This document shows positions 1-36,456 of a stretch of DNA of 64,000 bases, one piece after another. The notes beneath the pieces were generated by a model. That model was not told where the DNA came from. It ran no database searches and saw nothing but the letters and a program-made list of their open reading frames with translations. The DNA is from Diadema setosum. Taxonomy: Eukaryota > Echinodermata > Echinoidea > Diadematoida > Diadematidae. The position numbers and the translations under genes are program-made. Each line of letters begins with the position of its first letter. The stretch's first letter is position 1. The DNA is taken from NCBI RefSeq assembly GCF_964275005.1, contig NC_092692.1:12820764-12884763 (forward strand), in the 5' to 3' direction.

Positions 1-1
1 C

Positions 2-175
2 CTTACAATGCAAGGGCGATGAAGCAATCGCCGTGAAGAATACCCCAGGCAGATCCTCACTTTTCATTTTGGTACTTTCGAGATGGGTCAAACCACACAG
101 AAATTTAGACAAGTTTGCTGCTGATGCTGGCTTTGAAGTCCAACCTCTGAGAAATGTCATCGCAATTTTGCGGAT
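2..175 (-). CDS. Exon 9: LRR-type exon cut by the window edge
   Basis: A 58-codon phase-0 exon after acceptor TTCTTCTTCGTCAG. It encodes IRKIAMTFLRGW, then LCGLTHLESTKMKSEDLPG, and ends LHCK. By comparison with exons 7 and 8, which end C-Q at the donor, the exon should end at base 2 with the G of the donor at base 1; the rest of the donor lies outside the window. An alternative donor would be CATT|GTAAGG, in phase 1. No stop codon is reached, so the gene continues to the left. Confidence 0.7.
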   Translation of the reverse strand, partial: MRKIAMTFLRGWTSKPASAANLSKFLCGLTHLESTKMKSEDLPGVFFTAIASSPLHCK

Positions 176-3100
176 CTGACGAAGAAGAAGAAAACGATTA
201 AATATAATGATTTTCAAATTACCCGTGCTACGAGAGAGGAGAGAGGAGCAGAGGGGAAGGGGAAAAAAAAGAACCAAAACAAAACAAAACAACTGATGCA
301 GGAAATTGTTTGAAGCTAAAACATAGTTCTCAGGAGGGCTCAAAATTCATCTCACTGGCCACCATTTGCCATTTGCAATGCACTGCTTGCAATCCGTTGA
401 AGGCTCCAACAAGAAACTTATCTGGCTGACGCGATTCGCCGAGATAATATAGATATCACGTCTGACATCAAAATTTAATTTGCACTAGCATTTTATATTA
501 TCATATCTGAATTGTATTATTCTATTATCAATCATTAATGATGATTTTTTTTTTTTTTAATCAGATGGTCCATGCACATTCTCACACAATACGATGTACC
601 TTACACGATTACAGGCACAGAATTTTCCACTTTGTTTCCTTGTTCCCCCTCTCTTCAATACAGATACTCCGTTCCCAGGCCACCACTATTTTAAGCATAT
701 AGCACGACCGGCGGAGCGTTTTCAAAAGTGTGTGTGGGGGGGGGGGGGGGGCGCTTCCGGGTTTCATGAGCTAACAAGCCCCCCCCCCCAAAAAAAAAAA
801 AAAAAAGGGGGGGGGGGGGAAAGAAGTCTTCAGCTCATCTTTCTTATTCCAGTTCCGTTAAGATGCGGAGTATCTAAATATAGATATGTTAAGGAATAAA
901 ATGACCTTCCCATGGATATCAAAATTTCCCCAGTGTTTATATATTTAAATCTAAAATGAGTATGTGTAAGGTTACTGCTCCGTTGATTAATTTTTTTTCT
1001 TTTTGTTGACGAAAAAGAGTTATTACAGAATTATTTGAATTAGTACAGGTTAGTGAAAGTTATGATTTATTATTTCTCCACGCCCTTTCATTTGTATCCT
1101 GCTCTTTTGCTTTTCGTCACTCGATGTTGTTGTTGTTGTTGTTTTTCTTTCTGTCAATTTATGTATTACAAACATGTAAGTTTTTATAAGAGTTATGTAT
1201 TTTTTAAATTTCACATTGTATTTGTATAACTTCCATGTTCTGGACCCCATGGAAGACCAGCAATGCCATGTTGGCATCGCTGAATATGGGCCATCCAGCC
1301 GTTGTTGTTTTTATACGGAAAATAAAATCAATCAATCAATCAAAAGATTTCATTCTGTTGTCAGTGATGTTTGAAAAAAATATCAATATCATTTTGTACG
1401 GTGTTCAAATCAAACCGACCAACACAATAATTTCTTTAGTTTTGGAATGATATCTAAGATCAAAATGATGACAATAAGAGTGATTAAGATGATTATCGTT
1501 AATGCTTGCACATTATCATTATTCTTACCATTGTAACATTTGAATACAGATATTACTGAGTTTCAGTCTGAATTTCCAATGATGATTGTGAACGTGCATC
1601 ACAAAACCAACAAAAAGTCCCACCCCTTGATTTTACGTGAGGACTCAAAAATGGTGAAATGGGTCAACCAAGTCGATCTTGAGTTTTCTGAAAGAGCTAT
1701 TCTTCTTCTACAGTGTTCTCAAATTTTGGATCATAAGATGTATAAGAAAGTGTTTTCAGCAGTTAAAGGTCTTGTTTGTAGGTCGTTGCTGTTAACTATC
1801 ATATCTGGTATGAAAGGATATCTTGTTTTGTGAATTGACTGTATCACATTACTACGAGTACGATCATCATCCTTGATATAGTGCAGCTTTGTCTAGTAGC
1901 ATTATCGTAGGTGTGTTTCATTCGTAATCAAACCACGTAAGTAAGCCACGTATTGACAATGAAATGTGTATTTACATTTAAAAAAAGTCGAGCTTTACCC
2001 ATCCTAAAAAAGGGTCATAAGTGACGATTGTACGTAGAAAAGTACAAGTTAATAGGTGAAGATAGAATGATACGAACTCACAGGTCTTTTTCAAATATTC
2101 ATTTTGCATAGTCAATGGTGACGCACCTGGCATCGTGATGCTGAGACAGCGGCAGTCGAGTAGAATTCATCGGGCAAGTGGACGCATGTCAGACTGAGGG
2201 TCGAAAGATGTGGCATATTGCACACCCATTGGACAAAATCATTTGACGAGGACTGACTATCTGAATCCACATTAAGCTCGTGAAAAAACAGCGTCAAAGT
2301 CTCAATCTGTGAAAGCAAATCAAGGAAGGAAAGACATATCGAGGAAACGGAAACGAAAACCACATTTTGATCACGAAAAAACAAACAAACCAAGAAATGT
2401 AACTACATAATACTTTGCAACTTAAAACTTCGGGAACCGATTTAGCTTTCTCTCTTTTTCCCTCTCACTCCGAGTTAGCAGTGCAAAACACTTCTCATTT
2501 CTTCAATCAAAGAATTACAAATTACTATTGTTTATAGAGTTCGCCAATAAATTTATCTATCATGTGTGTTGTGCCTGTGTGTGTGGGTGTGGGCATGTGT
2601 ACCTGTTTTCATTCAATTTTCATTGCGTAATATCCTCCCGTTTTTAGTTGTTGATTTTTTCTTCATTTGAGTGGAACGTAGAGGACTGTCATAGTACTTA
2701 ATTGTGAAAAGAAGGAACATGCGACTTTTTTTTTCCTGAAATACACCCCTGTTTACAAAATACTTTCGACATATTGCTACCACATCGCCTTACCCTCTTT
2801 TACATAGGTTACCTATATATCATTTTTTTTTTTTAATCGGGGGGGGGGGGGGGGGGCTCTAGAGGGCATGGTGTTCATTTGTATATTCGACCACACTAAC
2901 GATAATTCTTGCCAAAGGTGATGAAAATTTGACCAAGCATTTAAAGAAAAAAAAAGTGAAAACTGGGGCACAACTTGGTCCTGGCCCCAACTTGTCCAAG
3001 GGGGCAACCCCTGAATCTGGCCTGAACAAACTTGAAAGTACACTCCGTAATGTATAAACTCAGAGATTTTATTAAAGATTTTGAAATTTGAAGGTTGTTC

Positions 3101-6100: not shown

Positions 6101-9100
6101 TCTCGTGCTCTGACATGCCCTTCGCACTCCACAGTGCTTTTGCTGAGTCGCCTTCACAGCGGTTGAAACATAAGATTTCTTCCGCCTGGTCCGCCTAAAC
6201 AGACTTGATTAATTGGTCCGGTTGAGCAAAGTCCCTATATGTGGGTGGCCTGCCAAAGCTATCGAGGTCCACCTGCCCGGATTTTGAAGTCAGAGATTTC
6301 CTTCTCCTGAGGCAGATTTACATCTAAGATGTTCAGGGTTGAGGGTTCCACCAGCCCGAAGTGGCATGTTTGTTTTGTTTTTGTTTTGTTTTGTTTTGTT
6401 TGTTTGTTTGTTTGTTTTTTGCCGGGGTTGCCTTCCCTACAGATCTGCCATGTTTATCCGTGGTAGGGGCGCCTCATACAGGCACCTGGTCGGTAGGCCT
6501 ATTCACCAGAAAGGAAGTTGATGTTTTGGGACTAGGTCCCATGTATTGCTACTACTCATGGTGCTGGATTTTGGGAGACCAGTCTAGGACGCACGAGGAC
6601 CATCTAGTCAAGGTACTACTCCTCCAGTGATCCTAATTAACCCCAACAAGGAAATTTCTATTGGTATTCTATTGTGGCAAAATAAACCATTTTCCCTATC
6701 GAAACCAACAGGCTTGTTTGTCTTGAAGAGCCAATAGTCTATTGGAATTTCGACCTGGGATAATTATTATGGTTGATAAATGAAAGCGATCAACCTGATC
6801 CAGCCAGGAGGCATGCAGTATAAATGATTGTGAAAACAGAGCGACAAACGAGAGTTAAATGACATCAAACTGAGGACGATTTGGAAAAAAAAAATACTTA
6901 ACAGGAAAGTCGTATGTGTCCAGTGAGTAGGCCCTACCCATTTTTACTCCAAACAAAGGAACACAGAGACTTTCACAATTATTAAGGATGCATTGACGTA
7001 CCTGACAGGATTTCACGTTGGCGGCAGTTGTTGAAAGGAAATCACGGGACAAGTAGGGACATTTCAAAGTGAAATTCGACAGATGGGGCATGACACACAC
7101 CCATTTGGCCAAGTATTGTCCCGTCGAGGATCGTGAAGAATCGTCCCATAAATAATCGTCATCCCAGCTTTCAAAACTTAACTCCAGATATTTAATCTGT
7201 GGAATAATGATAAAGTCCAAAATAGACTAAAAGGAACAAACAAGAAGAAACTAAATAACGTAGATCTGAATGAAATGTTCCATTAATTCTGGCGTTACGT
7301 TTGCTGAAAGGTTTTCTTGTGCTTACGCCAAGTATGGGGACGACACTCGATGTGCAGCGGCTGACGGAGCATGGCGCTGTAGTTCCAAAATGGGAAGAAC
7401 CAGAAAGTTGCGTAATTATTACAAGGTCAGAGATTATCCGGTCGCTCGCACACCATAGACTAGTAAGGTCGTAACATTAAATTCTGAGATTACTGATATT
7501 CTAAGATTCTGAGATGTAGGGCGGATAAAACACCAAATTTGGAGAGATTATCTCTCATGACTAACTCATTGATATTAGAGTAGGAGTCCTCTTGATTTCG
7601 CAAAGAGCCAAAATTCGCTAAGACCAGGCGTCCACTAGGGCGCGGACAAGAAGCGGAAAGCTAATTTAGTAATTCCGCACACATTCGGCAACTTCTCCGC
7701 ACGTTCTTGTCCGTTCACTGTCCTCAACATGTCCGGGCGTTTCCGCACCTTCGGGAGAGAGAAAATTTCAGCATCCAAATTTTGATCGAGACAGGAAGGA
7801 GTCAACACGTTCCGCGAGCGAAAGGATTTCGAAAGTAAAAAAAAAAGTAAATGCGGCATCATACCAATGAAACGCAAAAAGACCATGAAGGTGCCTATGC
7901 TAGCCCCACAGCCAAACCTCTCTTCCACTGATGAGGAACAGGTAAATATCAGCATTTTCCAGTCCCAAATGAAGAAAGCAAAGCAGAGGGCAGTGGATAT
8001 TTTACCAACAGTAACTAGGAAAAAGAGGAAGCAGCACTCTCCGCTCCGAGTAAACTTTGTTTTTTGTTTTTTATTTCGTTCTTTTCAGAAATCATTTTCA
8101 TTTGAGGGATTTTTAATAGTTGCCATTACATCTTTTTAAAATATAGTACATCGTTTTATTCGTTTCAAATTTGACCGCCTATAAACTCAAAACCCACAAA
8201 GTAGGTCAATTTTTTTTTTTTTTAAATATACTATGTTACAGCACTATATTCTAAGCTTGAAAAATTATTTAACTTGTTTGAAAATGACCATCCTCGCTCA
8301 TTCAAAGGGGATCGGGACCAGTGCTATCTGAGCATCTCTCACAGCTGGCATTTGAAGCAATAAGGCAAAGTGAATTTCGGCCGGTGTGACCTCCATGACG
8401 GCTAATAGTCAAATGAGAAAAATCGAAAGTCGGCTCCCAATTTATAACCTTGCCCTATTTCCTTATACTGTTACTTATGTTGTCGGCAAGTCATCCTGAT
8501 TGTCCTCGTTCATGATTAGATGTGTCCGCGATGTCCGGCTACGATTGGCATATTCCGGGGTATTTGGCGCCCTTCCTGCTGTCCTGAGTGATTCCTAGGA
8601 CACTCCTAGGAATGTCTGCAGTCAATCCGCAGAGATTCCTAGGAATGTCCCAGGAGAAGCCGATTCGCACACTTTTTCCGCGTCTGACGCGAACAGGATG
8701 CCGAAATGACAGAATTTGATTCCGAAACCCTTCCTACAGGCTAGGCTTGTCTGCGCCCTATATAGTGGACGTCAGCCCAAAGCAAAATTCGAGCGATCCT
8801 TCACAATGAATTGAATGCAATTGCAAATCGAGAAAGTTTCACGCCGCGAAAATGGTCGTTGGCTCTCATTAATTTCGTGAAAGCTTCACTGTACTTAACG
8901 CTGTACGTATTTTGGTATCTTAGGAAGTATATATAGTAAAAAAAAAAAAAAGAGCTTCAGATTTGTTGTAAATTTTTTCAATTTTTCATGGAAATGAAAC
9001 ATGACCCCAATCTTGAATTCCATGATCAGAAACATGGAGATGACTGAATTCATTACCGCTTTTAGGTGGGTTTGAAAATAGAAAATGCTGTTAGGGTGCC

Positions 9101-12100
9101 ACGGTGTGACGTATGTAGGCCTACTTCACTCGTACTCTCAGTTCTTAGTATTAGTATTTATACGTATGGGGCTGCGGAACGTTTTATGTGTGTGTGTGGG
9201 GGGGGGGGGCGACTTCGGACCGTTGACGGGGGAGGGTGAGGGGAGGGGTGTTCAAGGGTCAGTGATCTTCCGCCCCCCCCCCCCCCCCCAGTTACAAAAC
9301 GTTACCAAGCCCCTTTGGTAACTCTAAACAGGGAAAGTACGTCACATTGCAATTTATTCATCGCACATTTTGTACAGTGGCTGCACAATTACATGAAGTA
9401 TGAAAGAGCTATGCCTTATCTAAATCTCATAAACCCGCAACATACCATGAAATTGCATCTGATTGTGCATCTGTATTTCTTAGTTTTATTACAGTCAAAT
9501 ATCTTATAGAACAGTTGTGTGAGTATGATTATTACGATGATACAACCTCCTCGACGACCCCTTGCTGTCACCGAACATATCGGTGTTACTGAACTTTTGT
9601 GGAAGATCTTACCTGACAGGTTGAAGACTCTCTTCCTAGGATCTTGTAGAAGTCCATGTCAAATCGTGAGTGACATATCGATACTTTGCGCAGCACAAGG
9701 CTGGAAGACATTCCCTCGGCTAAGTCACGCGACAGAGTTCTTCCACACGTCACTTTGTGTAACTTTAATGATCGCTGTAATGGGAACAAACGTGGATTGA
9801 TAGTAAAGGAAAAAAAAACACAAGACGTGATACATTCAGTTCATACCTTCATTGACGCCTTGCAGGAAGAAATAAAGATAAAGAAGCCTTAGCCGTTTTG
9901 TATTACCTTTTTGTTAGGAGAGCTGACGTACTCAGACATGACTTCATTGTTTTCTATACATGGCTTCGTAAATGCTGATATAATATAGATATTGTACAAA
10001 ATACAAAGGATTACGTCTCATCTCGAGACACAGTTTACTCAGTATGATCACAATAAACTTTGAACATAATACCAGACTAGTACCATTTTGACAACTGTAA
10101 CATATTTCGCTTCTCTCCTAGTGACACACAGTTGTTCTGTCATGACATACTATTTCTGGTCCAGTCAGCGCTTTTTAAGCTCGTGAAAACGTGTTTTACA
10201 CAATGAATACCGTACACAATGAATACCAAAAAAAAAAAAAAAAAAAAAAAAGAGGAGGAAGGGATTTAATCTCACAAATGCATAACAAAGTATTTTCTAA
10301 TCAGACATTCAACCTCTATACGAATCTGCATCCACAAAAAGCTTTCACATTCCGTCAACAGTGATCAAGCAGAGAAGCTATGGAAGTCGTCAATTACTGT
10401 CTGTGAATGACTTTTGAAATCGATATGAACGCTAATATATCACTCACCACTTGCTTACAGTGCACCATGTACACAACTCCTGACAGTGTATGTTCTGATC
10501 TGTGTATTAATAGTGAGTATTCTTGCCATCGTTCTCCCACTACCTTGGTAGCATCCGCAGTATGACATTCAAACGCAACGTCGATGCAGAATTCCTGGTT
10601 AGCATACTTTATCAAGTCGTCGATGATATCAAGGCCAAGCTCATCCCCAAATGCCGAGGTGAAGTACAGCAGGTAGCGGAACTCTTCATGTCGACGAAAA
10701 ACCTCGTATTTCAGCTGGTCATACTTTGCCCGTTCATTAGCAAATAGATTCTCCATGTATACCCCTGCAATATATTCTTGGAACAATTTGTGCGGGAATG
10801 AAAGCGTTGACGCAACTAAAGATGGAATGTTGACATTGCGTCGACGTTCCATATCCATGATATCTCTCTCTATAGTCAAAATCCCAACTCTACAGCATAT
10901 TTTCATGGCGTCGTGACATTTTTTGAATTCTTCTTCAGGAAACGAAAGCTTCTTTTCTAATAAACCGACTAGTGCTATCTCACTTATGTCTTGAATTGCC
11001 CTGTCAACTTCCCTCAAACATTCTTGAACGTCTTGTAGATTATCACACACTTTTGATGCGTAATGTTCTTTCAGGAATGAGATCATATCTCCAAAAATCT
11101 TGGAGAAAGTTTGCAATTTTCGCAGCCTCTCTCGCCTTTCCTCACTTACATCTTTCCACATGAGGCAAAGCATTGCGCAATAGATAGGAAACGGGGCCAT
11201 ATACGACCGGATGACATCATTTTCTACCATGAATCTGATCAGGTCTCCTGCAAGGGCATCCTTCTCCTTAATTCGAAAATATTTCAGGATGTATGCTGTC
11301 AAATTCTTCTGGTTGAATCCTTCTACTATGATAAAAGTGTAAGCTTCGGCAAGACTCTTATCCATCGTAAAGTCGCTTATTCTCCATGGTCGTGTGGTCA
11401 CTATCACCTTGCATAACTTATATTTCTGTAATCCTACAATACCGATGACGTCATTGTTGTTTGTGTCATTTAGTTTTTCGTTAAACTCGTCGAACCCATC
11501 AAACACAAGGAGAACTTTACTTGGATTTCTTGAGATGTAGTCGTCTATCTGGTTTGCTGATGCTACATTTGATTCAGAGAGATGCGTCTTTACAATATCA
11601 CCTATACTTCTGCCGTCTGAGACATTTCGGAGAGGAATTAGGAGCACCATGTCCATATCCTGGAGAATCCTTCCCTGACACCAGTCCCAGGCAATCTTAG
11701 CGCAAAGCGTTGTTTTGCCGACACCTCCCTCACCCTGGACTAGAAAACGCTTCGAAAGGCTTTCCTCTTTACACATGGTCAAAAGTTCTTTGTAAGTTAT
11801 TGGTCTTTTATGCATGCCAATTTGTTCTGTGAGACTCAAATTTGTGTAAATTTCATCCAAGTCTGCAATTTCAAAAGGGTTGAGTTGATGTATTTGGACT
11901 CTTCTGCGTGAAAAGCGGTAAAACTCCATCAGCTCTTCTTTACATTGCTGTACCTGTTCCCATTTCAGCGACGATCCTTGCCAACCTGCTTGCAGTGAAG
12001 CAAAACAGACCATGAGACGGAATCATTACTTATGTGTATATTCATCTATAAATGTATATATTTACACGTACGTTGTCCGAGAGCCATTGTATTGCCACAA

Positions 12101-13303
12101 GACTGCACGTTCTCATATTCCACTAAATTATTCATAAAAGTGAATTAAACGAGGACGTCCTTAGAAACAGTATTGCATACATAGATCCAGTGGATTACAT
12201 TCCTGCTGAGGATTCCTACGAAGCATTCGCTTTTAAAAGAACAACGCATCTGGAACAACGCATCTGTTTTCGAACAGACTCAACTCAGATGTAGGAGACT
12301 TGCCGCCGGGAGCATTCAGTGTATCTATTTCAATTTAGCAAACGTCCCCTTTGATTCTTTACGTGTTTTGTAAATCAGCGTGTAAGCCTTGAATACGTTT
12401 ATTCAAGATAAGGTGAAACATTATTTTATTCAAGATAAGGTGAAACATTTATTCAAGATAAGGTGAAACACACAACCATCCTTTTCGCAAACCCCGATTA
12501 CCATCCCCCCCCCAAAAAAAAAAAAAATAGAAATGAGAAAGACATTGAAAAAAAAATAGTCTACAATTTAGTGAATAAGTAATCATCCTTTGGCGGGATT
12601 ACCATTTACCATAATGATGATAGCTGTGGGTATATAGTACTGTAAACAGGATGACAGAGCTGTTTCAAACAGAGATTGAAAATATCAAAATTTCTCATAC
12701 TTAAAAGCAATTCTGTTTCCATGTTTATAGATGACTCTGTTTCGTGCTGGCTCCGCCAACAGGGATTCCAGTCACATCCTGTAAGATAGTAGGATCAAAA
12801 ACAATAAGTGCATAAACATAATGAGCATCATTCTAATGTGCACTTACAACAACAAAAGGTCACTCCCCCACATCAAGAAGGAACCTCCCCCATTCAAAAT
12901 GATACAACTTTTTAATGAAAAGATCTTTGCAAATAATGTGATTTATTTGCACACCATTCGTCTTTAGTGTGCGATTTTTCATGTGTTGCAGCTATCGGAA
13001 TACCCCTATAATACCACATTGTTTTTGCCCAAAACTTTCTGATTGGGGTTACTTTTTTGTGTGCATAACTGTAAAAAGCTAATTTTGAGAAAAACTGATG
13101 TGTTTGTGTAGTTCAATTAAATTAAAATCATGGTTTTGTCTACTCTTGTCGGTAATAGGCACTTTCAGTCGAAATTGCTGAGTATCCATGAATGCACTAT
13201 CGTAACATAATGTTTGACATATTGCTTACATGTTGTGTTTTAGTTTATATTATGATGAAAATACTTTATGGATACATGTTATGCATGTATATCCATATAT
13301 ATG

Positions 13304-13348
<45 letters not shown>

Positions 13349-16300
13349 AGCAAAAAAGAAAGTAAACACTTTTTAGAATTCATATTTTTATAGAAAAGCT
13401 TGATGAAAATCAATGACTTACATACCATATTAAAGGGGATAGCTAGTAACTGATCAGTGGGAATTAGTGGGAATGCTGGGGAATGATTGTTCCAATCTTT
13501 GTGGGATTCATTTAAAGGGAACGCAAACCCAAAGAGCAATGTGGATTGAGTGAAAGCAGCAACATTAGCAGAACACATCAGCGAAAGTTTGAAGAAAATC
13601 GGACAATCGATGCAAAAGTTATGAATCTTTAAATTTTTGGTGTTGGACCCGCTGGATGAGGAGACTGCTGGAGGTTATGACGTATAAGTGGACAACAATA
13701 TAAAGAAAATAAATTATAAAGAAAACTCCACTAAAATTCATTTATCATGAAAATTACAAATTCCATCAACTTGATACTGACATATGTTAAGGGTAGCAAT
13801 TATTTCCCCTGCTTTCTGAAAGCGGTTAGTCAAGTGCTCTTTCATAATGCTAGAAAAGTGAATTTCTGTTGAATTTTCTATATATTTTCTTTGTATTGTT
13901 GTCCACTCATACGTCATAACCTCTAGTAGTCTCCTCATCCAGCGGTTCCAACACCAAAACTTTAAAAAATCATAACTTTTGCATCGATTGTCCGATTTTC
14001 CTAAAACTTTCACTGATGTATTCTACTAATGTTGCTGCTTTCACTCAATCCACATTGCTCTTAGGGTTTGCGTTCCCTTTAAGAGTACATTGTATATCTA
14101 TTGTCTTGTGAAAATTGCTTCAGAATGGTCTCATATTCAAGTAATGTGCAGTTCAATGTTTCCAGGTTTGCATGCCCGGGCGATCGTTAACGGGTCGTTC
14201 TGACCTGGAAACATTAAACTGCACATTACTTAAATATGAGACCATTCTGAAGCAAATAATTTTCACACATCAATAGATATATAATGTACTCTTAAATGAA
14301 TCCCACAAGGATTGGAACAATCATCCCCCAGCATTCCCACTGATTCCCTGATCAGTTACTAGCCATCCCCTTAAAAGGTAATTTTATTGGCCATCAACCT
14401 GTTAGGTCAATATAAATGGACATTTCACGCATGAGTGAAAACATTCATTTTTGTCCTCCAAGGCACAAAAATAAATGTCGCAAAAAATGACATGTTGGTT
14501 TTCATTTGCAAATGCCCTTTACGATGACAATGATAAGAAAAGACCAGTTAAACACAATGGAAGACATGAATGAAATAGTTAAAATAAGTTTTCGTTCTAT
14601 TTACCTCTTCATAACCTCGAACAAAATCAAAGTGGGAAACTAAAAGGGAAAAATTAAAATTTTCTACCAACTCTAACCTCAAAATGAAAATGGGAGTAAG
14701 GCCACAAAGATGGTTAAATGCACAGAATATCTTTATTTAATCTTTTAGTTGTCTAATTTTAGAATTCATGAGACAAATTTAAGAATCAAATATTACTTAC
14801 AATCTTCCCAATATCAGAAATCGAATAAAATTTCTATCATTTTTGTTAATATTGCTTCTCTTATTTCATTTGAATTTCGATTTGGCAGTAGATTCTTCAT
14901 TTTCCTCCATTATTTTAAACCTTTATTGATATTTTTCGCTTCAAGGAATATTATAGAGATCATAGCTTTATTTCTGCAACTTACTTCATTTTTGTTATTT
15001 GTTAAAATTTGTCTTTTCTTCTTATTGTTTCAGGGAAGAGCACTTACGCATGAATGATGACTTGTTCATTTTAGCAATTTTTACTTTTGTGCCTTGAAAG
15101 AGAAATACAAAAGGTGTTAACTCGTTCGCAAAGTATTTTTTTTTTTATCAACCTACCATGTTGAATACCTTTCATATTGTGTATAATACATCAACTGTTA
15201 GCCAAAGAGCTATGAAAAATATAAACTGGGAAAAGTGTTTATTTTCCTTTTTTTTTTTTTTTTTTTTGCTGAGTGTATATATATTATATATTCATTTATG
15301 CGATTGATAGGTGGGGAAAAATAAAATATCAGCACCTTTTTGTGGAAGATAGTCAGGATGGTATCGTTGCATATACTTTCCAACTGGGAGAACTAGAATG
15401 ACTATGACAACAGGTACACCAACGAGTAGTCCAATGATGAGTCCCAAATTATCTGGTTTTCCTAAAGTTTGATATTGACATAATCATAGGCAAAGTTAAA
15501 ACATTTAATCATTATAAGGTCATTGCAAGTGTAATTGCTATCTCGTTAATATAAGAACGATATTATTTCTGTGTTCTGCTTGTGTTTGTGTAGTGACAAG
15601 GAGGTACACATTGTCTATTTTTTCTCTCTCTTTACAGAACAAAATCAATTATCATCTTTATGAAGGTATGCATGTTTTGTGATAATAAATAAACGATTAT
15701 TTGAGGATGTGGCCAAGCAATTAGCTTACTCAATTTCTAAATCTGAATATAAACATCTGTGTATAAGTATTAGTTTATTTATTAATGATTATTCAGTTGT
15801 GGTGGAAGAAGCTATTGAAAGTCACAACCCGTTATCATTCAGAAATACAAATTTGACACTGCTTCACGAAACCTGATGTAGGTAGAACTGTGATTTCTGC
15901 GGTTGAAGTTCCATTCAGCGAGTCACCGGTAGCAACGCATATGAAAGTTTGCTCTGCCCCATGTTTAGCTGCAACAATGATTGTCTCGAACCTCTCGTAT
16001 GTGTCGTCAGAAAGTGTTATCTGCAGCGAACCGACGGAATTCAGTCTCTTTCCCGACTCTTCGACCCACAGCATGGAAATGTTTGGTTTGAATCCACTAA
16101 CGACACACGTTAAGTTAGAGGAAGGAGTGTTGGAGGGAGTTTGGTACATACATCGGCTATGATGGGACTGACTCTTATCGACGCATTCCTCGATTATATG
16201 TCTTGATGCTTTTGCTAGGGAAACGAGAAAGATTTTAAATTTTAAATGATACATCGTTGCATTCAAGTTCGATCTTTTTTCAGAAATTAGCTGAAACAAC

Positions 16301-17075
16301 GATCATTTACTTTATTTTTTTTTTGTTGAGAACATGAGGAGTTATACGATATCGCTAACATTTTGACATAAACATAATATTATATCTAATCTTGACATAA
16401 CAATATAAAGTGTTGCCACAGCACACTTGATATTCCATATCTCTCGTCACGATTGTCACAACTATCATCTATGTTCTATTATAGTTCGGACTTACTAATG
16501 TCGCTTACATAATAACGTATCCCAGAACTGAATTAAACACCGATCTCACAAAATAAAGCTTCTGGAATTCGATAATTTCAGCTTTTACGACCAGTCACGT
16601 TCTCTCTTTGTATAAAAATACCGATTGTATTAAACTAATATTGCTATTGCCATCAACATTTTCTTTGTTATTCATATGGCGCAATATATAAAAAATGACA
16701 ATGCATAGGGCCCTGTGTCGTTTCTGTCACTCTTTTATTTAAATAGCCACTTTCCCTCTTCCACACGTGATATAGATTCATATCTTTTTTTATGTTATAA
16801 AAAAAATCAAAACAGAAACAACGACACGAGCTATTGTATCTGATTAGTTATTCCAAAGGTTCGTTATTCTGATCGTTCGTCAATTCGAAAATGAAATAAT
16901 ATTCGTATTAAATTCCGAAAACTGAATAATCTTTGGCGAAGAATGGCTCATCCTGATGATTGTAGAATACAGGAAAGGACGGCCAACACGGAGGAGTAAA
17001 TATATTTCTTTGTTCATCAATATTGTTTATTCTGTTTCTCTGTTATCACTTGTATTGTTTTGCAAATGCCGAATA

Positions 17076-17128
<53 letters not shown>

Positions 17129-20100
17129 TTACGATTCCAGTTCTTCAATAAGCGTGAATATCATGTGTGTCTGTGCGTGTATTATGATATAATCACTTGT
17201 CTGTGCGGGGTCATTCCAGGAGACCGACACCGATGTGAGTCATACAGCCCACGAGTTCGACACTGAAAAAAAGAAAAGTTGCATGAGTTATACATCCCAC
17301 GAGTCATACAGCCCATGAGTTTGACACTCGGCAAAAAGAGCCTATGAGTTCAACACTATAGGTAAAACAACCAACGAGTTCGGCATTATTACAAGGGGCT
17401 TTAATGAATCGGTCTTGTGGGCCTTGCTTACTTATATAGTGTAGAACTCATGGACTGTATGATTCATGGATGTCGAACTCGTGACGTATACCCGTCTATG
17501 CGTGGGGAGTGTGGATTTCTGTGTTTCTATTCAATTTCTTTTGCTTGATATCCTAATATTATATTATTTTTGGATTACAATAACGCATTTTGTCACTGAA
17601 TGAAGTTTATTTCATTTTCGGAATTACAAATCTTCTTTCATTTCGGATTAAAGAACCTTGTTTCACTTTCGGATTAACGAACATTTGGAATGATGAATTG
17701 CAACCGCTTCTGCCTATACTTCATACGGGTCCTTCAAAGGAAAAGTTTGCTTGCTTGCTTAGCCACAGAAACTTGCGTGTCAATGATGTCAGCTACCTTA
17801 ATAGACAGTTCTGGCTTTTCATCGTCGATCTTCGTGTAGTAAAATTATCAAAATTATAGAACTATACAATTCGTTACGCCATCCAACAACGCCCTTATGA
17901 ATCCCGAATCCACGTACCTGAAAATGAATATTCTTTAGCTATGCGTGAAGTAATTTCAATAAAATTATTATTTTTACATTAATTTCTTGAAATAAAATTT
18001 CCATTTAAACTTGCCCACACACATACACAAACATGTATGTTTTTATGTATATAATATGTAAACATATAAATGAATAGAAGAAACATATTGGAAAGTGTCA
18101 TGCATGGTGACAAAAGATTACTTACAGCCAACCGTCACTAGGGTGGAATTCTCAATAACTTGCAAATTCTTCAGCGCTACCTGACAACAATAGCGACCCT
18201 CATCTGCCACCTCTAGGTCGGTGATGACGAGGCTGAAGTTCTTGTCGATGGCGAACCGTTCCTCCCAGCTCTCAAATTTGTCATCGTAGAATCCAGCCTT
18301 TGTCTCCTGCTGATGCGAGCTGCTCTCCTTGAACCAGACCACACCGACAGGCTCCTCCTTGAAGTCGCACTGCAGTCGGATGTTTTCCCCCTTCCATCCC
18401 TGCAAGTTTGGGGCCGTGCCAACGACTGGGGCTAGACGATGGAAATGGAAATGGGGGTAAGTTCATGACATTAGCAATAGATACATTGTTATAATGTAAC
18501 TTGACAGTGTAACATAATTATGTATGCATGCTAAGTGCATGATGTTGTGGTACATGTACAAACAAGCTGTTCGATGTTAGAGCAGTCCTGTAAAAATATT
18601 TTTTGTCCCCGCCGAACGAGTTCGAGCAGGGGACTATATGAAACGGGCTCCTTACGTGTGTGTGTCCGTGTGTCCGTGTGTTCGTGTGTGTGTGCGTCCG
18701 TGTGTGATCAAAATGTTCAATTTGCTACTTCTCTGTCATTTATGAGCCAATTTTGATTCTGTTTGCTTTATATGATAGCACTACATGGGAGCTTTGAAAC
18801 TTCTACACAGAATTTCAGTTGTGACCTTTGACCTTGACCTTTGACCTATATTGTACATTTTGCTACAAAATGCTACTCCTTCGCCATTTCTAACCCGATT
18901 TCGATTCCGTTTGCTTTATGTGATGGCACTAAGTGAGGGCTTCAAAACGTCTTCACAGAATTTTGACCTTTGACTTCTTTGACCTTTGACCTTGATTTTT
19001 GACCTGTATTGTACATTTTGCTACAAAATGCTACTCCTTCGCCATTTCTAACCCGATTTCGATTCCGTTTGCCTTATGTGATGGCACTAGGTGAGGGCTT
19101 CAAAACTTCTACACAGAATTTTGACCTTTGACTTCTTTGACCTTTGACCTTGATTTTTCACCTATATTGTACATTGGCTACAAAATGCTACTCCTTCGCC
19201 ATTTCTAACCCGATTTCGATTCCGTTTGCTTTATGTGATAGCACTAGGTGAGGGCTTCAAAACTTCTGCACAGAATTTTGACCTTTGACTTCTTTGACCT
19301 TTGACTTTGATTTTTGACCTATATTGTACATTTTGCTACAAAATGCCACTTCCGGCGGGGACATATATTACGCACCGCGTAATTTCTACTTTTCCTTGTT
19401 TGATATATCATTCATCAATTTGGATTATTTACACTTCTGTTAATTCATCGTCTTCTTTCACTTATTCCTAGTTGCACCATCCTGCATCAATAAACCTATC
19501 TGTAGCCTTTGTCCTCATCTACATAACTCTGATAATCAAATTGGTTTTACCGGTATCAAGACTTTGATGACACGTTGATATCTATGTATATTTTCGATGA
19601 ACTTTGGACATATAGAATTGGTTGTTCAAGTTACTTTGCTGACATTACATTGATACAAACCCATATAACATTAATGCTTCTTGAACAAGCCCATTTATAC
19701 TGGTTTCCGATGTTAGGACAGAATAAATCATTTCACTTTGACATCTGCCAGTGCATTTGGCGTCAGTCTTTACAACCATTATTAGTATATATGATCGTAT
19801 GCCCACCATTCTCATTTTAAAAATGCACATTTTCTCCCGTAATGTGCTTTGTTAGCAGTTCAGCGGTGCCCTTGTACCCGTGTATAGCGAAACGATTTTT
19901 TTTTTTTTATGATGCTCTCATCGCCTATGTATACACATGATACATGTAAAATGTAATTCCTTCAAATGAAATGCAAACATTCGGAGAACTTATGATGTAA
20001 TTTTAATTGGTGCAACGGACTTTTCCACAAGCAGCACCTTACATTCTCTCCTGCTCTCCTACGCGTCTCATGCTGACTGCCCAGAATCACTATACAGTTC

Positions 20101-22691
20101 ATTGAGATGACCCATTAGAAGCTCTCATATTAAAATGAAGGTCTTCATTCAACTATAGCTCGGTCTGAAAGTGCCTTTAAAAATGTCAGAGGAAAAAATA
20201 TCACGGGTAATGATATCTCTTTCACCTCTGATATACTCAATATTTACACAAAACCTATGACATCTTTTTTTTTTTTTCCATAGATCTCTGAAATTTTTAC
20301 CTGGCGCTCATAACTAAATATCTCTTATCGTTTGAACATCTTCCCTGAAGCTATCATAACTTGAATGTGTTAACTTCACTGTTTATTATTACAATAAGAA
20401 ACATCGAAATCATCCATAGCCTGCAATATATGATTTCACATTCGTGCAGATGCTGGCACAGATATAAATTAGGACGTTGTACATCATACATTTTGTTCAC
20501 AAGAAAAAGGATGAGCCGGTAGTAAAAAAAAAAAAAAACCAAAACAAACTTTTAAAAGAGGACCAAACATTTCAACAATGGGATTAGTGAATATTTTATA
20601 TACAGACGTATGAATCCGAAACGTCTCAAATTTCGCAGATTGGGAGCCAGCTGCAGATGCAATATGTGCAGACTTGTACAAAGCATACAGTTTTAATACA
20701 GCGGCGAGAGCAATGAAGCATAGCTTTGCTTGGCCTTTTTTTTTTATCATATTTTATCTTATTTGTTTCTCCTTTTTTGCGCCGTTATCAAAGAAAGCCA
20801 ATGTAACTTTGCGACACGCACGCGATTGGGATAAAGAAATCTGACAAATAGCTTTTAACATAACCTACGCCTATCAATGTGACATTCTGAATTATCACGC
20901 TGATAAATCATTTGTGACCCTGCATCACAAAACGAACAAAAAGTCGCCAGACATATATTTATACTGAAGTTAAAAGAAACCAAAACCCAAAGAGAAATGT
21001 GGATTAAGTGAAAGCAGCAACATTAGTGGAACACATCAATGAAAGTTTGAAGAAAATCGGACAATCGATGCAATGGAACCGCTGGATGAGGAAACTACTA
21101 GAGATTATGACGTATTTACGGCGTAAATACTCAATTCTGAGTGATACACGCCATTAAAATAAAAAAAAAGTATATGTGGACAACAATATAAAGAAATATG
21201 AAGGGAATTCCACCAAAATACATTATTCACGAAAATTGCACATACCATCAATTTGATACTGACATATGTCTCAAGGGTAGCATTTCCCCTGCTTACTGAA
21301 AGCGGATAGTCAAGTGCTCTTTCATTATGCTAGAAAAGTGATTATTTTGTGGAATTCACTTTTATTTTCTTTATATTGTTGTCCACACATGACGTCATAA
21401 CCTCTAGTAGTCTCCTCATCCAGCGGTTCCAACAGCAAAATTTTAAAAATTCACAACTTTTGCATCGATTGCCGGATTTTCCTCGAACTTTCACTGTGTG
21501 TTGATACCAATGTTGCTGCTTTCACTAAATCCACATTTCTCTTTGTTTTTTGTTTAGGTTTCATTTAAGGGCAGATTCTGAAAGGGCAGGTTTTCATCTG
21601 TAAATAATGTATAACTCAATTCAAATTGACTCTACACACCTATCTTAGTATTGGAAAGAAAGCACACACTCTGGAAAAGTGGTCACTGAGAAAAGATGTT
21701 CTGAAGGATTTGGTCTATTTAAGCCCTTAATCTGCAAACCCCTGCTCTGTGCAATTAATGGGACAATAAAACAGGATCGATGTTAAACACCATAGCAACA
21801 ACAATAAAGGGGTTGTCAGATTAAGCTGACATTAAGTACATTTTTATTAGCACATCCTATTCATGACTAACACCAAATTTCAAAGTAGCAGCATTGTCTT
21901 TTCAAAAGTTATTAGACTTGAAAGTGAAGAGTGTGTAAAGGATTTTTAAGAAATGAAAAGGGGACTCTAAGACACACCTGATCACACTATTCTAAAAAAA
22001 AAAAAGTATTCTAGAGAAACTGCTGAAAATACAATATCCCATTCGTTTTATGATCCCAAACTTTAGAATAATGTAGATGAAGACTTGCTTTTTCAGAGAA
22101 TATAAAAAACTCAAGATTTACAGGTTGACCCATTTCTCCTATTTTGAGTCCTTTATACATAAAATCACACTTTTTATTGGTTTTGTGATGCACGGTAACA
22201 TGAAATTCCATCCGAGTGTTTACCTCTGAATATCTCCTCACCACGAGCCCACTATTACATGTATACTTTTTAAGCAAAGAGTGCAGACTACAAATACACC
22301 TGAATTACGATTGAATACAACAAGACCTCTTTCGTGTAGAATAAAAAGGAAAAATCAATTCTTTTGCGGATAGAACTGAATCAAGTGAGTGAAAATGGGG
22401 GGAAAGGAAAGAAAATGTAACAAAGATTTCCCACCTGGCATTCTCCGACAAACATTAACAGCGTGATTCTAATTACATATCATTTTTTCTGGTTAGCTCT
22501 GTCGAATTTTAACGACGTCTCTTGGTTGGGACTTGACCATTGACTCGCTCAATTTAAATGAGTGCCGGCTTATACCAGTAAACAAGAACAACTACAACAA
22601 AAAAGAAGTTATGCATACCTTTTGCAGCAGGGCCACCGAACACAGAAGCAATCAATGCTAGTAGAAGTCCGTGGTAGTATATTTTATCCAT
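2..22691 (-). CDS. Ig-TM-NACHT-LRR receptor gene (nine-exon model, 3' end outside window)
   Basis: Joined exons (minus strand): 22691-22619, 18431-18126, 16214-15873, 15461-15336, 11985-10448, 9774-9613, 7196-7002, 2306-2127, 175-2. They total 3096 nt, or 1032 codons without a stop. Predicted layout: signal peptide 1-24, V-like Ig 25-126, C1-like Ig 127-240, transmembrane helix about 245-267, NACHT region 283-795, LRR exons 796-1032. Every internal exon is bounded by AG and GT and all phases agree. NACHT-LRR proteins are innate sensors that oligomerise after ATP binding; Ig ectodomains bind extracellular or cell-surface ligands. The combination suggests a surface receptor that signals through a NACHT assembly; this is inference. 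The exons are seen directly; the join between the transmembrane and NACHT exons is the least certain, because the donor is weak. Introns hold many foldback elements and a LINE fragment. Confidence 0.65.
176..2126. other. Intron between LRR exons 8 and 9, low-complexity and repeat content
   Basis: Contains homopolymer stretches (G, C and A runs at 736-820), a short CAAT tract near 1330, and a dispersed repeat at about 1585-1765 (listed separately). No further LRR-like exon was recognised. Confidence 0.5.
1585..1765 (+). repeat. Dispersed repeat, copy 1
   Basis: Begins near GTGCATCACAAAACCAACAA and matches, at roughly 70% by eye, the reverse complement of 22020-22215. A short third piece is at about 20918-20950. 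The open frame across copy 1 gives a similar peptide to copy 2, but splice sites and a coding context are lacking, so it is treated as an old repeat. Confidence 0.6.
2127..2306 (-). CDS. Exon 8: LRR-type exon
   Basis: A 60-codon phase 0-0 exon, from TTTGCTTTCACAG to TGCCAG|GTGCGT. It encodes IETLTLFFHEL, an acidic/serine linker, WVCNMPHLSTLSLTCVHLPD and ends SRCQ. It is a clear sister of exon 7 by motif order. The L-x-x-L-x-L pattern is that of an LRR beta strand. Confidence 0.8.
2307..3598. other. Intron sequence without recognised gene
   Basis: Holds poly-G/poly-T runs at 2821-2856 and 3104-3118. Nothing else was identified before the inverted-repeat element that starts near 3599. Confidence 0.4.
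3599..6762. mobile_element. Composite element with terminal inverted repeats, carrying a LINE insertion
   Basis: The left end (TATCCTAGGTCTAAAATTCC) and the reverse complement of the right end (TATCCCAGGTCGAAATTCCA) match with few differences. The interior next to both ends is rich in TTCTGTTGGTTTCT-like motifs in both orientations, for example 3630-3960 and 6650-6720. Most of the middle is a CFDP2-like LINE fragment on the minus strand. The simplest reading is a non-autonomous DNA element interrupted by a LINE. It lies in the intron between LRR exons 7 and 8. Confidence 0.45.
4416..6640 (-). mobile_element. Degraded non-LTR retrotransposon, CFDP2-like endonuclease part
   Basis: Two minus-strand frames, 5560-5279 and 4916-4416, encode parts of the apurinic-type endonuclease and the region after it. 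Diagnostic pieces are RRTALVAKELSRYNIDVAAL followed by ETR, IHGVGLAIK, and later DYIIVRQGDLRDV and AECWTDHRLVRTTL. These match the family often annotated as craniofacial development protein 2-like in invertebrate genomes; it is RTE-related as far as can be judged by eye. Reverse transcriptase is missing and the frame is broken between the two parts, so the copy is dead. The 5' non-coding part reaches to about 6640, with a T/G-rich (TTTG)n tract at 6370-6420. Confidence 0.75.
7002..7196 (-). CDS. Exon 7: LRR-type exon
   Basis: A 65-codon phase 0-0 exon, from ATTCCACAG to TGTCAG|GTACGT. It encodes IKYLELSF, then an acidic linker, then WVCVMPHLSNFTLKCPYLSR and a tail ending KSCQ. Its layout matches exon 8 closely (WVC-MPHLS-L-C-L), showing that the two are duplicates. 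Together they form the probable ligand-sensing LRR end of the NLR. Confidence 0.8.
7197..9612. other. Intron between exons 6 and 7
   Basis: Contains a transposon-like element with inverted ends at 7624-8775 (listed) and G/C homopolymers near 9197-9290. No exon was recognised in the rest. Confidence 0.4.
7624..8775. mobile_element. Putative DNA transposon remnant with GGCGTCCACTA-type ends
   Basis: The left end CAGGCGTCCACTAGGGCGCG and the reverse complement of the right end (CTGACGTCCACTATATAGGG) share GACGTCCACTA / GGCGTCCACTA and then GGGCGCRGACAAG. Inside, palindromic TTCCTAGGA-type pieces lie at 8590-8650. A 90-codon frame at 7867-8139 is rich in lysine but has no recognised domain. Such ends resemble PIF/Harbinger elements, but no transposase is visible and no target duplication was fixed. 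Confidence 0.4.
9613..9774 (-). CDS. Exon 6: LRR-type exon
   Basis: A 54-codon phase 0-0 exon with acceptor TTCCCATTACAG and donor TGTCAG|GTAAGA. It encodes SLKLHKVTCG and LVLRKVSICH segments, compatible with degenerate leucine-rich repeats, and ends in TCQ like the following LRR exons. It directly follows the NACHT exon, whose donor is also phase 0. The repeat is weak on its own; the call rests on splice sites, phase and the shared C-terminal CQ. Confidence 0.7.
9775..10447. other. Intron between NACHT exon and first LRR exon
   Basis: AT-rich sequence with a poly-A run at 10229-10251. No repeat family or exon was recognised. Confidence 0.4.
10448..11985 (-). CDS. Exon 5: NACHT NTPase region
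   Basis: A 1538-nt exon entering in phase 1 and leaving in phase 0 (GTG|GTGAGT). It starts with a linker (LKWEQVQQCKEELMEFYR) and an IYTNLSL segment typical of the region before NACHT in invertebrate NLRs. Walker A is GEGGVGKTT (model residues 367-375), Walker B LLVFDGFDE (441-449), and the sensor segment VIVTTRP. The end carries FPHKLFQEYIAG, the conserved helical motif after the winged-helix part of NLRs. All catalytic residues expected for ATP binding are present. The acceptor is a tandem AAGCAG, which keeps frame with either AG. No CARD, DEATH or pyrin domain is encoded in this exon. Confidence 0.92.
13300..13345. repeat. (AT)n microsatellite
   Basis: Continuous AT dinucleotides over about 45 bases. 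Confidence 0.9.
13434..14370. mobile_element. Outer palindromic (foldback) element, interrupted by an inner element
   Basis: The left arm (about 13434-13515 plus 14083-14166) and the right arm (about 14212-14370, reverse complement) match along their whole length, beginning GGGGATAGCTAGTAACTGAT / GGGGATGGCTAGTAACTGAT. Flanks are TTAA-like on both sides. The left arm is split by an inner element at 13516-14078; the right arm keeps the uninterrupted version. Confidence 0.75.
13516..14078. mobile_element. Inner palindromic element with TTAA target duplication (AGGGAACGC family)
   Basis: Terminal inverted repeats of about 190 bp, roughly 90% alike, beginning AGGGAACGCAAACCC. TTAA flanks at 13512-13515 and 14079-14082. 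The empty site is visible in the other arm of the host palindrome, where ATTCATTTAAGAGTACAT runs unbroken. TTAA duplication is typical of piggyBac-type transposition, so this is a likely non-autonomous piggyBac-type element; no transposase is present. A relative lies at 20974-21564 and a more distant one near 56030-56600. Confidence 0.8.
15238..15243 (-). terminator. Candidate poly(A) signal (AATAAA) after the short-tail stop
   Basis: A canonical AATAAA hexamer on the minus strand lies downstream of the stop at 15292. The hexamer is expected often by chance in such AT-rich sequence, so it only has weight together with the weak exon 4 donor. Confidence 0.3.
15292..15335 (-). CDS. Possible alternative short cytoplasmic tail by read-through of exon 4
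   Basis: Without splicing at 15335, the transmembrane frame continues as GADILFFPTYQSHK and then TGA. An AATAAA signal follows about 49 bases later. This would give an Ig receptor with a short tail and no NACHT part. It is either an alternative product, the true end of a separate Ig gene, or chance in AT-rich intron sequence. Confidence 0.35.
15336..15461 (-). CDS. Exon 4: transmembrane segment
   Basis: This 126-nt exon encodes KPDN, then about 23 hydrophobic residues (LGLIIGLLVGVPVVIVILVL), then KYMQRYHPDYLPQK. The basic residues after the helix fit a type I orientation with the C terminus in the cytoplasm. The acceptor is AAACTTTAG|G in phase 1. The donor would be AAAAAG|GTGCTG, also phase 1, but it matches the consensus poorly beyond AAG|GT. 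If it is not used, translation continues 14 residues into the intron and stops at 15294-15292. Confidence 0.75.
15462..15872. other. Short intron between C1-like Ig and TM exons
   Basis: About 410 bases of AT-rich sequence with no recognised repeat. Confidence 0.5.
15873..16214 (-). CDS. Exon 3: C1-like immunoglobulin domain
   Basis: This 342-nt phase 1-1 exon begins with a cysteine-containing linker (EECVDKSQ) and then an Ig domain. The motif LTCVVSGFKPNISMLW is the C-x-V-x-G-F-x-P pattern of C1-type domains, and the second cysteine is in TFICVAT. Sequons NLT, NIS and NGT are present. The acceptor is TTTCCCTAG and the donor CAG|GTTTCG. It sits between the V-like exon and the transmembrane exon in the same strand and phase. 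C1-like character is unusual outside jawed vertebrates, so the class is tentative; it may be a C2 or I-set domain that happens to carry the motif. Confidence 0.8.
17072..17125. repeat. (AAT)n microsatellite
   Basis: About 18 AAT units. The poly-asparagine frame across it is an artefact. Confidence 0.9.
17222..17485. repeat. Degenerate inverted-repeat segment
   Basis: Repeated CCCACGAGTTCGACACT-like motifs on the left and their reverse complements (TGTCGAACTCGTGACGTATA) on the right. It looks like a decayed foldback element with short internal repeats. Confidence 0.5.
18126..18431 (-). CDS. Exon 2: V-like immunoglobulin domain
   Basis: This 306-nt phase 1-1 exon is the classic format for one Ig domain. 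The first conserved cysteine lies in IRLQCDF, the core tryptophan in VGVVWFKE, and the second cysteine in the motif DEGRYCC, the usual D-x-G-x-Y-x-C of V and I sets. The extra adjacent cysteine in that motif is unusual. N-glycosylation sequons are present (NFS, NST). The acceptor is CGTCTAG and the donor GTAAGT is near-perfect. The domain is predicted to be the membrane-distal ligand-binding part of the receptor. Confidence 0.85.
18606..19385. repeat. Element with about 158-bp tandem units carrying TGACCTTTGACCT motifs
   Basis: Bounded by GTCCCCGCCGAAC on the left and CCGGCGGGGAC on the right. Three to four units of about 157-159 bp follow one another; landmark TTGTACATT recurs at about 18852, 19010, 19168 and 19325. 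The first unit is more diverged. Each unit carries clustered TGACCT half sites. Similar CCCCGCCGAAC-bounded repeats are common in marine invertebrate genomes. Confidence 0.8.
20974..21564. mobile_element. Palindromic element, second copy of the inner TTAA family
   Basis: TTAA at 20970-20973 and 21565-21568. Arms contain GAGAAATGTGGATT and AAGCAGCAACATT as in 13516-14078, and the core GTTATGACGT near CTGGATGAGG. The ends are more diverged than in the other copy, suggesting an older insertion. Confidence 0.7.
22020..22215 (-). repeat. Dispersed repeat, copy 2
   Basis: Reverse-complement counterpart of 1585-1765, sharing GTGCATCACAAAACCAA and GAAATGGGTCAACC blocks. No coding support. Confidence 0.6.
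22619..22691 (-). CDS. Exon 1: signal peptide of the Ig-NACHT receptor
   Basis: It encodes MDKIYYHGLLLALIASVFGG followed by PAAK, a typical secretory signal with a hydrophobic core and small residues at the likely cleavage site. The start ATG (22691-22689) has G at -3 and G at +4, a good initiation context. The exon ends in phase 1 at AAAAG|GTATGC, matching the phase-1 acceptor of the next Ig exon. A TATA-like sequence lies about 31-39 bases upstream. It was too short to appear as a long open frame and was found by its splice donor. Confidence 0.75.
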
Positions 22692-31627: not shown

Positions 31628-31716
31628 TGTCTGTGCGTGAATGTAAATGTGAGTGTGTGCATGTGTGGGGGTGTGCAGTGCATGTGCGTTGATAATAACA
31701 ATAATGATACTGATAC

Positions 31717-36307: not shown

Positions 36308-36456
36308 CTTGCACAGTAGTTATTAATCCGTCGTTTGGTGAAGTTGTGTGATTCACATAAAACAGGAGGATATCCAAAATAAGTGAAATTTAGTCAGTTT
36401 TGCGAGACTTACGAGAGGTAGTGTGCAACTCAGTCCATAGCGCCCTCTATTTTTTT

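Follow-up and report, generated by a model that had tools for sequence, protein, structure and literature searches.

Receptors predicted to hang a NACHT domain from the membrane

NLRs are taught as cytosolic sensors. The gene considered here lies on the minus strand of a 64,000-nucleotide stretch of the sea urchin Diadema setosum (NC_092692.1, positions 12,820,764 to 12,884,763; this whole stretch is called the window) and is predicted to place a signal peptide, two immunoglobulin (Ig) domains and a transmembrane (TM) helix in front of a NACHT domain and leucine-rich repeats (LRRs). The closest described protein is AjNLRC4 of the sea cucumber Apostichopus japonicus, reported in 2021 at coelomocyte membranes with an Ig-like and an Ig domain outside, a TM segment, and a NACHT domain inside. 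Its Ig part binds microbes and its NACHT part binds actin, the reported route leading from Ig-mediated dimerisation through internalisation to actin binding, and, to its authors' knowledge, no protein combining the two domains had been reported (PMC8699970). The Ig part is also reported to form a complex with a caspase (PMC11932488), and a sea-cucumber receptor of opposite topology, AjNLR-new, has been published (PMC13133943). In the oyster Crassostrea virginica, a TRADD-N study described an expansion of about 50 proteins in which the cysteine-rich ectodomain and the TM helix, followed by DED and TRADD-N, stay constant, while the C-terminal part varies, with STAND NTPases and AIG-GTPases among the variants (PMC8195603). 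Among sea urchins, Strongylocentrotus purpuratus has NLRs with DEATH domains and 2A-like leaders (PMC4981915).

Given that AjNLRC4 and the oyster receptors are published, the Ig-TM-NACHT idea is not unprecedented. The first-pass annotation of the window had proposed the architecture and left its prior description open; the architecture recurs in many annotated Diadema relatives, and the answer on priority is yes, in AjNLRC4. The two share N-terminal Ig domains outside, a TM segment, a NACHT domain inside and no CARD, with AjNLRC4 placed at the surface by antibody staining. AjNLRC4 is reported without LRRs, whereas the window gene carries four LRR exons in addition to Ig, TM and NACHT in one spliced open frame. 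The sea-cucumber spacing is also longer (Ig-like 31-132, Ig 251-353, TM 483-503, NACHT 600-757), and a second TM segment is predicted after its NACHT domain; the proteins were compared by description only (PMC8699970, PMC11932488). What is new here is the LRR-bearing Ig form, its multiplication in long-spined urchins, and its module swapping. The literature searched, which took in few subscription journals, held no report of the Diadema family; the main text of the D. setosum genome paper has zero occurrences of NLR, NACHT or immun- (PMC11066563), and the Ig and NACHT combination was not found in the accessible portions of PMC13419447, PMC9646362 and PMC5094078. With a probability of roughly 0.62, the gene encodes a receptor that crosses the membrane once, by its one helix, with V-C1 Ig domains at the surface and NACHT-LRR in the cytoplasm, and in which ligand-driven clustering of the ectodomain would likely gather NACHT domains at the membrane.

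One frame from signal peptide to leucine-rich repeats

Ten minus-strand exons, running from 22691 to 1, join in frame and, as read from the genome, encode an Ig-TM-NACHT-LRR protein (Table 1). Nine of them (signal peptide, V, C1, TM, NACHT and four LRR exons) had been laid out in the first-pass annotation and are borne out: borders are canonical AG/GT wherever both ends lie in view, each exon is supported by relatives, all eight junctions keep the frame, and the joined frame is free of stops, at 1033 codons by our count where 1032 had been given. The direct TM-to-NACHT junction proposed alongside them needs amending, a tenth exon (12778-12701) having been missed; with it included, the joined protein has 1059 residues. 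From the signal peptide through V, C1 and TM to NACHT the junctions are of phase 1, and those that follow, into and between the LRR exons, are of phase 0; V, C1 and TM are symmetrical phase-1 exons, and the first three LRR exons are phase 0.

A phase match at a single junction arises by chance about one time in three, and the case therefore rests on relatives. These were gathered by a NACHT search with the joined protein, which returned 382 proteins at E <= 0.001 among 7983 candidates; the best 120 of the 382 are the listed relatives referred to below, some by number. Profiles made from relatives only, with the window excluded, were run against 3370 six-frame open reading frames of at least 12 residues. 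Besides the signal-peptide exon (37 relatives; Table 1), they recovered V at E 1.9e-49, C1 at 6e-62 and TM at 7.7e-23, the runner-up standing at 0.33 or worse for each of the four. By tblastn, the V exon was matched by 77 of the 120 listed relatives, C1 by 81, TM by 30 and NACHT by all 120, and the LRR exons 7 to 10 by 92, 74, 72 and 41. The same queries found no further gene copies in the 64-kb window and, outside the gene's exons, two lone matches, at 30824-31291 (P0041) and 35423-35704 (P0087, E 3.6e-4).

Pfam places NACHT at 9.7e-23, V-set at 6e-12, and C1-set at 7e-4 (20.2 bits, slightly below its cut-off of 21). The nucleotide-binding motifs of exon 6 are intact (Walker A GEGGVGKTT, Walker B FDGFDE, sensor 1 TTRP), and a PDB sequence search matches the NACHT domain to NLRP3 at 1.8e-12; an alternative acceptor that shortens this exon by 3 nt would keep the frame just as well. 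A single strongly hydrophobic stretch lies between Ig and NACHT, with basic residues on the NACHT side. Five N-glycosylation sequons fall in the ectodomain and others in the NACHT-LRR part. Signal-peptide cleavage, an Nout-Cin topology (from those basic residues), ATP binding and an NLR fold are predicted.

The gene has NACHT motifs, including Walker A and B, C-terminal LRRs and, as judged from the model of a relative, the NACHT-LRR fold in common with vertebrate NLRs such as NLRC4, NLRP3 and NOD2, but it lacks their death-fold front end and is predicted to be anchored in the membrane behind an Ig ectodomain. In place of a death-fold or BIR N-terminal effector stands the Ig-TM module, as judged with DEATH queries; no CARD, DEATH or pyrin domain was found in the visible part of the gene, CARD, PYD and BIR not having been searched separately. 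On this domain content it is classed as a receptor derived from NLRs rather than as a canonical NLR.

Table 1. Exons of the Ig-TM-NACHT-LRR gene in the window
Feature	Position	Strand	Content and support
Exon 1	22619..22691	-	Start codon and predicted signal peptide MDKIYYHGLLLALIASVFGGPAAK; donor gtatgc, phase 1; profile E 1.3e-5
Exon 2	18126..18431	-	V-set Ig domain; Pfam, splice borders, profile, tblastn
Exon 3	15873..16214	-	C1-set-like Ig domain; Pfam, splice borders, profile, tblastn
Exon 4	15336..15461	-	Predicted transmembrane helix, basic inner flank GKYMQRYHPDYLPQK; profile, tblastn
Exon 5	12701..12778	-	Juxtamembrane exon G|CDWNPCWRSQHETESSINMETELLL, 78 nt, phase 1/1; absent from first model
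Exon 6	10448..11988	-	NACHT domain and winged-helix region
Exon 7	9613..9774	-	Leucine-rich repeats; splice borders, tblastn; LRR fold in model of relative P0007
Exon 8	7002..7196	-	Leucine-rich repeats; splice borders, tblastn
Exon 9	2127..2306	-	Leucine-rich repeats; splice borders, tblastn
Exon 10	1..175	-	Leucine-rich repeats; open at window end, 3' end of gene beyond window
Possible 45-nt exon	15048..15092	-	In frame, phase 1/1, splice-perfect; probably unused

The juxtamembrane exon

Exon 5 encodes a conserved juxtamembrane motif, C.WNPCWR, between the membrane helix and NACHT. The junction reads ...YHPDYLPQK-G-CDWNPCWRSQHETESSINMETELLL-..., where example relatives read ...KHPDYLPRKGCGWNPCWRRPNIPERFHEEEELML.... 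A profile from 44 relatives finds the exon at E 1.1e-4 (runner-up 1.1 among the 3370 frames), and 3 of the 120 listed relatives match it by tblastn. It is present in 76 of 91 Ig+NACHT proteins, in 7 of 20 with NACHT only and 2 of 12 with Ig only, in 3 of 12 Ig-TM proteins with a GTPase-like tail, and in none of 13 DEATH+NACHT proteins. In most of 52 aligned relatives it runs on continuously with TM and NACHT, and across 66 proteins the TM-to-NACHT distance is tight in most (median 41, quartiles 39-44, range 14-234). Because the exon is conserved, the direct TM-to-NACHT junction was set aside and is retained solely as an exon-skipping variant; P0007, P0050 and P0058 join TM to the NACHT exon in this way. 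The possible 45-nt exon was likewise set aside despite its perfect splice sites, with no counterpart in the 52 aligned relatives.

Two variations on this region were observed. In P0008, P0024, P0025 and P0097 the juxtamembrane stretch of the TM-NACHT interval is expanded by tandem copies of a unit like RGPNIPEQCHEESECL. Further, P0122, P0124, P0128 and P0129 are short receptors with two V-C1 pairs and a TM segment, whose tails seem, by eye, to follow the juxtamembrane exon in another frame (DVTGIPAGGDH...) as far as an early stop; they would be decoy isoforms or else artefacts of gene prediction.

A family of long-spined urchins

Nearly all listed relatives (117 of 120) belong to D. setosum or D. 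antillarum, the other three being S. purpuratus proteins at 41-43% identity. By our own domain calls on these best 120 of 382, Ig then TM then NACHT, the order proposed in the first-pass annotation, was found in 78 gene models; 9 have Ig and NACHT without a called TM, 1 has TM and NACHT, 13 have DEATH and NACHT, and 19, including the three S. purpuratus rows, have no called N-terminal module (the species split is a hand-compiled list). One of those three, P0119, matches a DEATH query at E 1.1e-8. In the table of 148 proteins the Ig+TM+NACHT count is 82, which includes P0146, whose NACHT call is doubtful; P0146 is also counted in the 91 Ig+NACHT proteins, the 52 aligned relatives and the 123-row tree, and stands outside the sets of 90, 66 and 51 and the 78 of 120 listed. 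A search with the ectodomain gave 93 matches among 1866 candidates, all Diadema, under a scheme that admits candidates by exact shared words and whose E-value scale (5.8 billion sequences) masks more distant relatives; with a second ectodomain profile aimed at non-Diadema relatives, the best 120 of 222 matches were again all Diadema. No holothurian proteins occur among the best 120 of 382 NACHT and the best 120 of 222 ectodomain matches.

In module order (V, C1, TM, C.WNPCWR exon, NACHT, LRR) and in similarity, the window gene belongs with the Diadema Ig-TM-NACHT family. Against the 52 aligned relatives its NACHT has a mean identity of 65% (maximum 70%) and its C1 of 73% (maximum 81%); given these values, the window copy is a different gene from any of the 52, and its source would, on identity alone, likely be a diadematid urchin or close kin. 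Among the relatives themselves mean identity is 0.63 for V, 0.72 for C1, 0.57 for TM and 0.71 for NACHT, and 0.55, 0.42, 0.37 and 0.33 for the LRR exons in order, of which the later values may be too low through misaligned repeats and unequal repeat numbers. The cytoplasmic LRRs thus differ most and V moderately, a pattern that would allow for a second input, from inside the cell.

Predicted folds and a possible mechanism

The structure model of relative P0007 gives an NLR fold inside, including the LRR fold, and that of P0144 a V-C1 ectodomain fold nearest to CD80, PD-L1 and butyrophilin, with antibody Fabs scoring almost as high as the B7-like folds. The Ig fold claim rests on P0144, since in the P0007 model parts of the Ig region are poorly folded; the fold match lists cover the Ig part (P0144) or the NLR part only. 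With B7 and butyrophilin proteins the window gene shares the V-C1-TM plan and, as judged from P0144, the ectodomain fold, but it has NACHT-LRR inside and not a short tail or B30.2.

In the surface-receptor reading, the V domain would bind microbial or self surface ligands, ligand binding would cluster the receptor, and the NACHT domains would oligomerise under the membrane behind a juxtamembrane stretch of about 40 residues, with the LRRs either restraining NACHT or supplying a second, intracellular input. By analogy with sea-cucumber AjNLRC4, the output may be phagocytosis, a cell-death complex, or both. Given that no CARD, DEATH or pyrin domain was found in the visible part of the gene, that output would have to go through NACHT, the LRRs or a juxtamembrane motif. 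That an outside ligand could drive NACHT assembly, as first proposed from the exon order, is plausible.

Alternative readings of the locus

The locus might be divided between two neighbours on the same strand, an Ig-TM receptor whose TM exon runs on to the stop at 15292 in the intron (tail KGADILFFPTYQSHK), and a second gene, for a cytosolic NACHT-LRR protein, that starts at ATG 12013 or in an unseen exon. Stop and ATG both exist in the sequence, the latter in frame as a possible start of a free NACHT-LRR protein. Moreover, 12 of 148 relatives are Ig-TM proteins without NACHT and without a GTPase-like tail, and among the 117 listed Diadema NACHT proteins 16 lack a called N-terminal module. Some of these, such as P0034, P0074, P0089, P0099 and P0104, are modelled from a point just upstream of the NACHT exon, and 10 of the 16 start no more than some 35 residues from the NACHT match, without the juxtamembrane motif. 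Yet a conserved, in-phase exon separates the two halves and is continuous with both in most of the 52 aligned relatives, 78 of the 120 listed relatives are modelled as a single protein, and at least 4 of the 16 module-less rows (P0004, P0011, P0046, P0064) carry the juxtamembrane motif or TM and therefore look like truncated models. Four DEATH queries turned up no exon in the 64-kb window (best E 1.4) that could give a free NLR a hidden DEATH front end. In a set of 66 proteins, ectodomain divergence is correlated with NACHT divergence (r 0.745; none of 2000 permutations reached this, the highest being 0.218), although paired tandem duplication of two neighbour genes would also yield this. Juxtamembrane exon, tight TM-NACHT distance, correlated divergence and the lack of a DEATH exon together favour one gene, as far as sequence can speak to it, and two neighbours appear quite unlikely. 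Better placed, if still doubtful, is one locus with several products, in which an alternative first exon, a retained intron or a skipped juxtamembrane exon would yield the membrane receptor, a short Ig-TM decoy and a cytosolic NACHT-LRR protein. Numbered isoforms among the listed names, the skipped exon of P0007, P0050 and P0058, and the tails of P0122, P0124 and P0128, which appear to be the juxtamembrane exon in the other frame, are consistent with it, with the reservation that frame-shifted tails may be gene-prediction artefacts.

The direction of signalling may also be questioned. Butyrophilins sense inside and signal outside, and in an inside-out receptor of that type the variable LRRs would sense the cytosol, NACHT would switch, and V-C1 would display the change to other cells. 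The LRR exons are the least conserved modules and the P0144 ectodomain is nearest to CD80, PD-L1 and butyrophilin, but the B7-like similarity is generic to V-C1 pairs, antibody Fabs being nearly as good, and the published analogue AjNLRC4 binds microbes via its Ig part (PMC8699970); the scheme is considered unlikely. A reversed topology with NACHT outside, as in AjNLR-new, has that published case in its favour (PMC13133943) and the sequons of the NACHT-LRR part as well, but a signal peptide before the Ig domains and then one hydrophobic stretch with basic residues on the NACHT side make it very improbable. The surface-receptor reading itself has several points weighing against it. To the in-frame ATG, the module-less rows that start near NACHT and the effect of paired duplication must be added that the basis for this gene is genomic sequence, and that the relatives are automatic gene models rather than transcripts, some plainly run-on, with retroelement-type domains in the Pfam columns of P0014, P0028, P0041 and P0064 (RVT_1 of P0064 confirmed). 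Likewise, the least conserved modules are the LRR exons and not V, which disfavours V as sole sensor, and the caspase contact of AjNLRC4 maps to its Ig domains and not to NACHT, a different mechanism (PMC11932488).

Front ends and tails that appear to change places

DEATH-NACHT-LRR receptors of other sea urchins belong to the same NACHT family, with DEATH in place of Ig-TM, and so do the Diadema DEATH-NACHT proteins, which branch partly within and partly next to the Ig forms. A carefully built tree covered 51 NACHT domains, namely those of all 13 DEATH forms, 34 of 88 Ig forms, three S. purpuratus proteins and the window. On it the Ig label needs three changes and DEATH four, three of them forced by supported branches, and neither label forms a single clade in any of 200 bootstrap trees. 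A quick 123-row tree also asks four changes of DEATH, three forced, and 20 of the Ig label, the latter because many module-less models are scattered among Ig forms. One DEATH group (P0075, P0081, P0083, P0100) is nested among Ig forms within a fork supported at 100/98; its closest Ig neighbours (P0015, P0045, P0065, P0098) are modelled incompletely, lacking V, C1 or TM, which makes the exact count of DEATH/Ig exchanges unsure. The base of the 51-row tree is not resolved, and the direction of the first exchange is therefore read from the P0119 DEATH domain together with the quick tree, in which DEATH forms branch first. In the 51-row tree the window NACHT sits on a long terminal branch, and no sister to it is supported. 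From these trees we infer that the Ig-TM module occupies the DEATH slot of other Diadema NLRs and that the two were exchanged more than once, with a minimum of three exchanges on the 51-row tree. A 2A-like sequence, RAGDIE(S/T)NPGP, precedes DEATH in 5 of the 13 Diadema DEATH-NACHT proteins (P0068, P0093, P0102, P0106, P0114).

The tail appears to be exchanged as well. In 12 of 148 relatives, all Diadema, the same V-C1-TM module stands before a P-loop GTPase-like tail (P0121, P0131, P0134, P0135, P0136, P0137, P0138, P0139, P0142, P0144, P0145, P0147), some with an extra V. Of four tails scanned, P0144 resembles septin, P0147 AIG1 and P0134 MMR_HSR1, all weakly and below Pfam cut-offs, and P0121 gave no Pfam match; a PDB sequence search with the P0144 tail found no relative. 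No GTPase tail exon was found in the 64-kb window (best E 0.39), and no Ig-TM-GTPase receptor is reported in the literature searched. The C. virginica proteins offer an earlier example of different NTPases set behind the same surface module, although their ectodomain is cysteine-rich and not Ig, DED and TRADD-N follow the helix, and the animal is a mollusc (PMC8195603). The symmetrical phase-1 borders predicted in the window are a requirement of such shuffling. A wider proposal, tentative and held at rather less than even odds, is that in long-spined urchins a B7/butyrophilin-like V-C1-TM-C.WNPCWR cassette, flanked by phase-1 introns, is shuffled onto NACHT-LRR or septin/GIMAP-like GTPase tails and trades places with DEATH, giving a large germline repertoire of membrane-bound, inflammasome-like receptors read outside and, through the LRRs, inside.

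Other features of the window

The intron between the TM and juxtamembrane exons contains nested inverted repeats at 13459-14348, with 203-nt arms that are 93% complementary and further arms of 57, 53 and 48 nt; they look like a foldback or miniature inverted-repeat transposable element insertion, and similar sequence was seen by eye around 21000-21520. On the minus strand, 28525-31720 holds frames like those of a non-long-terminal-repeat retrotransposon (reverse transcriptase RVT_1 4e-37, endonuclease 1.6e-5), and long open frames at 35300-36319 and 43053-43931 have no Pfam match above cut-off. An LRR intron carries a weak endonuclease match, below cut-off, at 5279-5632.

Implications for the family

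Diadema urchins have suffered mass die-offs, and a receptor repertoire multiplied in this genus is for that reason of practical interest. More broadly, if the surface-receptor reading is true, a large family hangs NACHT-LRR from an Ig ectodomain and unites surface recognition and NLR assembly in one molecule, and the sea-cucumber cases would be shown to be no oddity. Finally, with DEATH and Ig-TM exchanged on one NACHT family, it becomes testable which part of an NLR sets the input and which the output.
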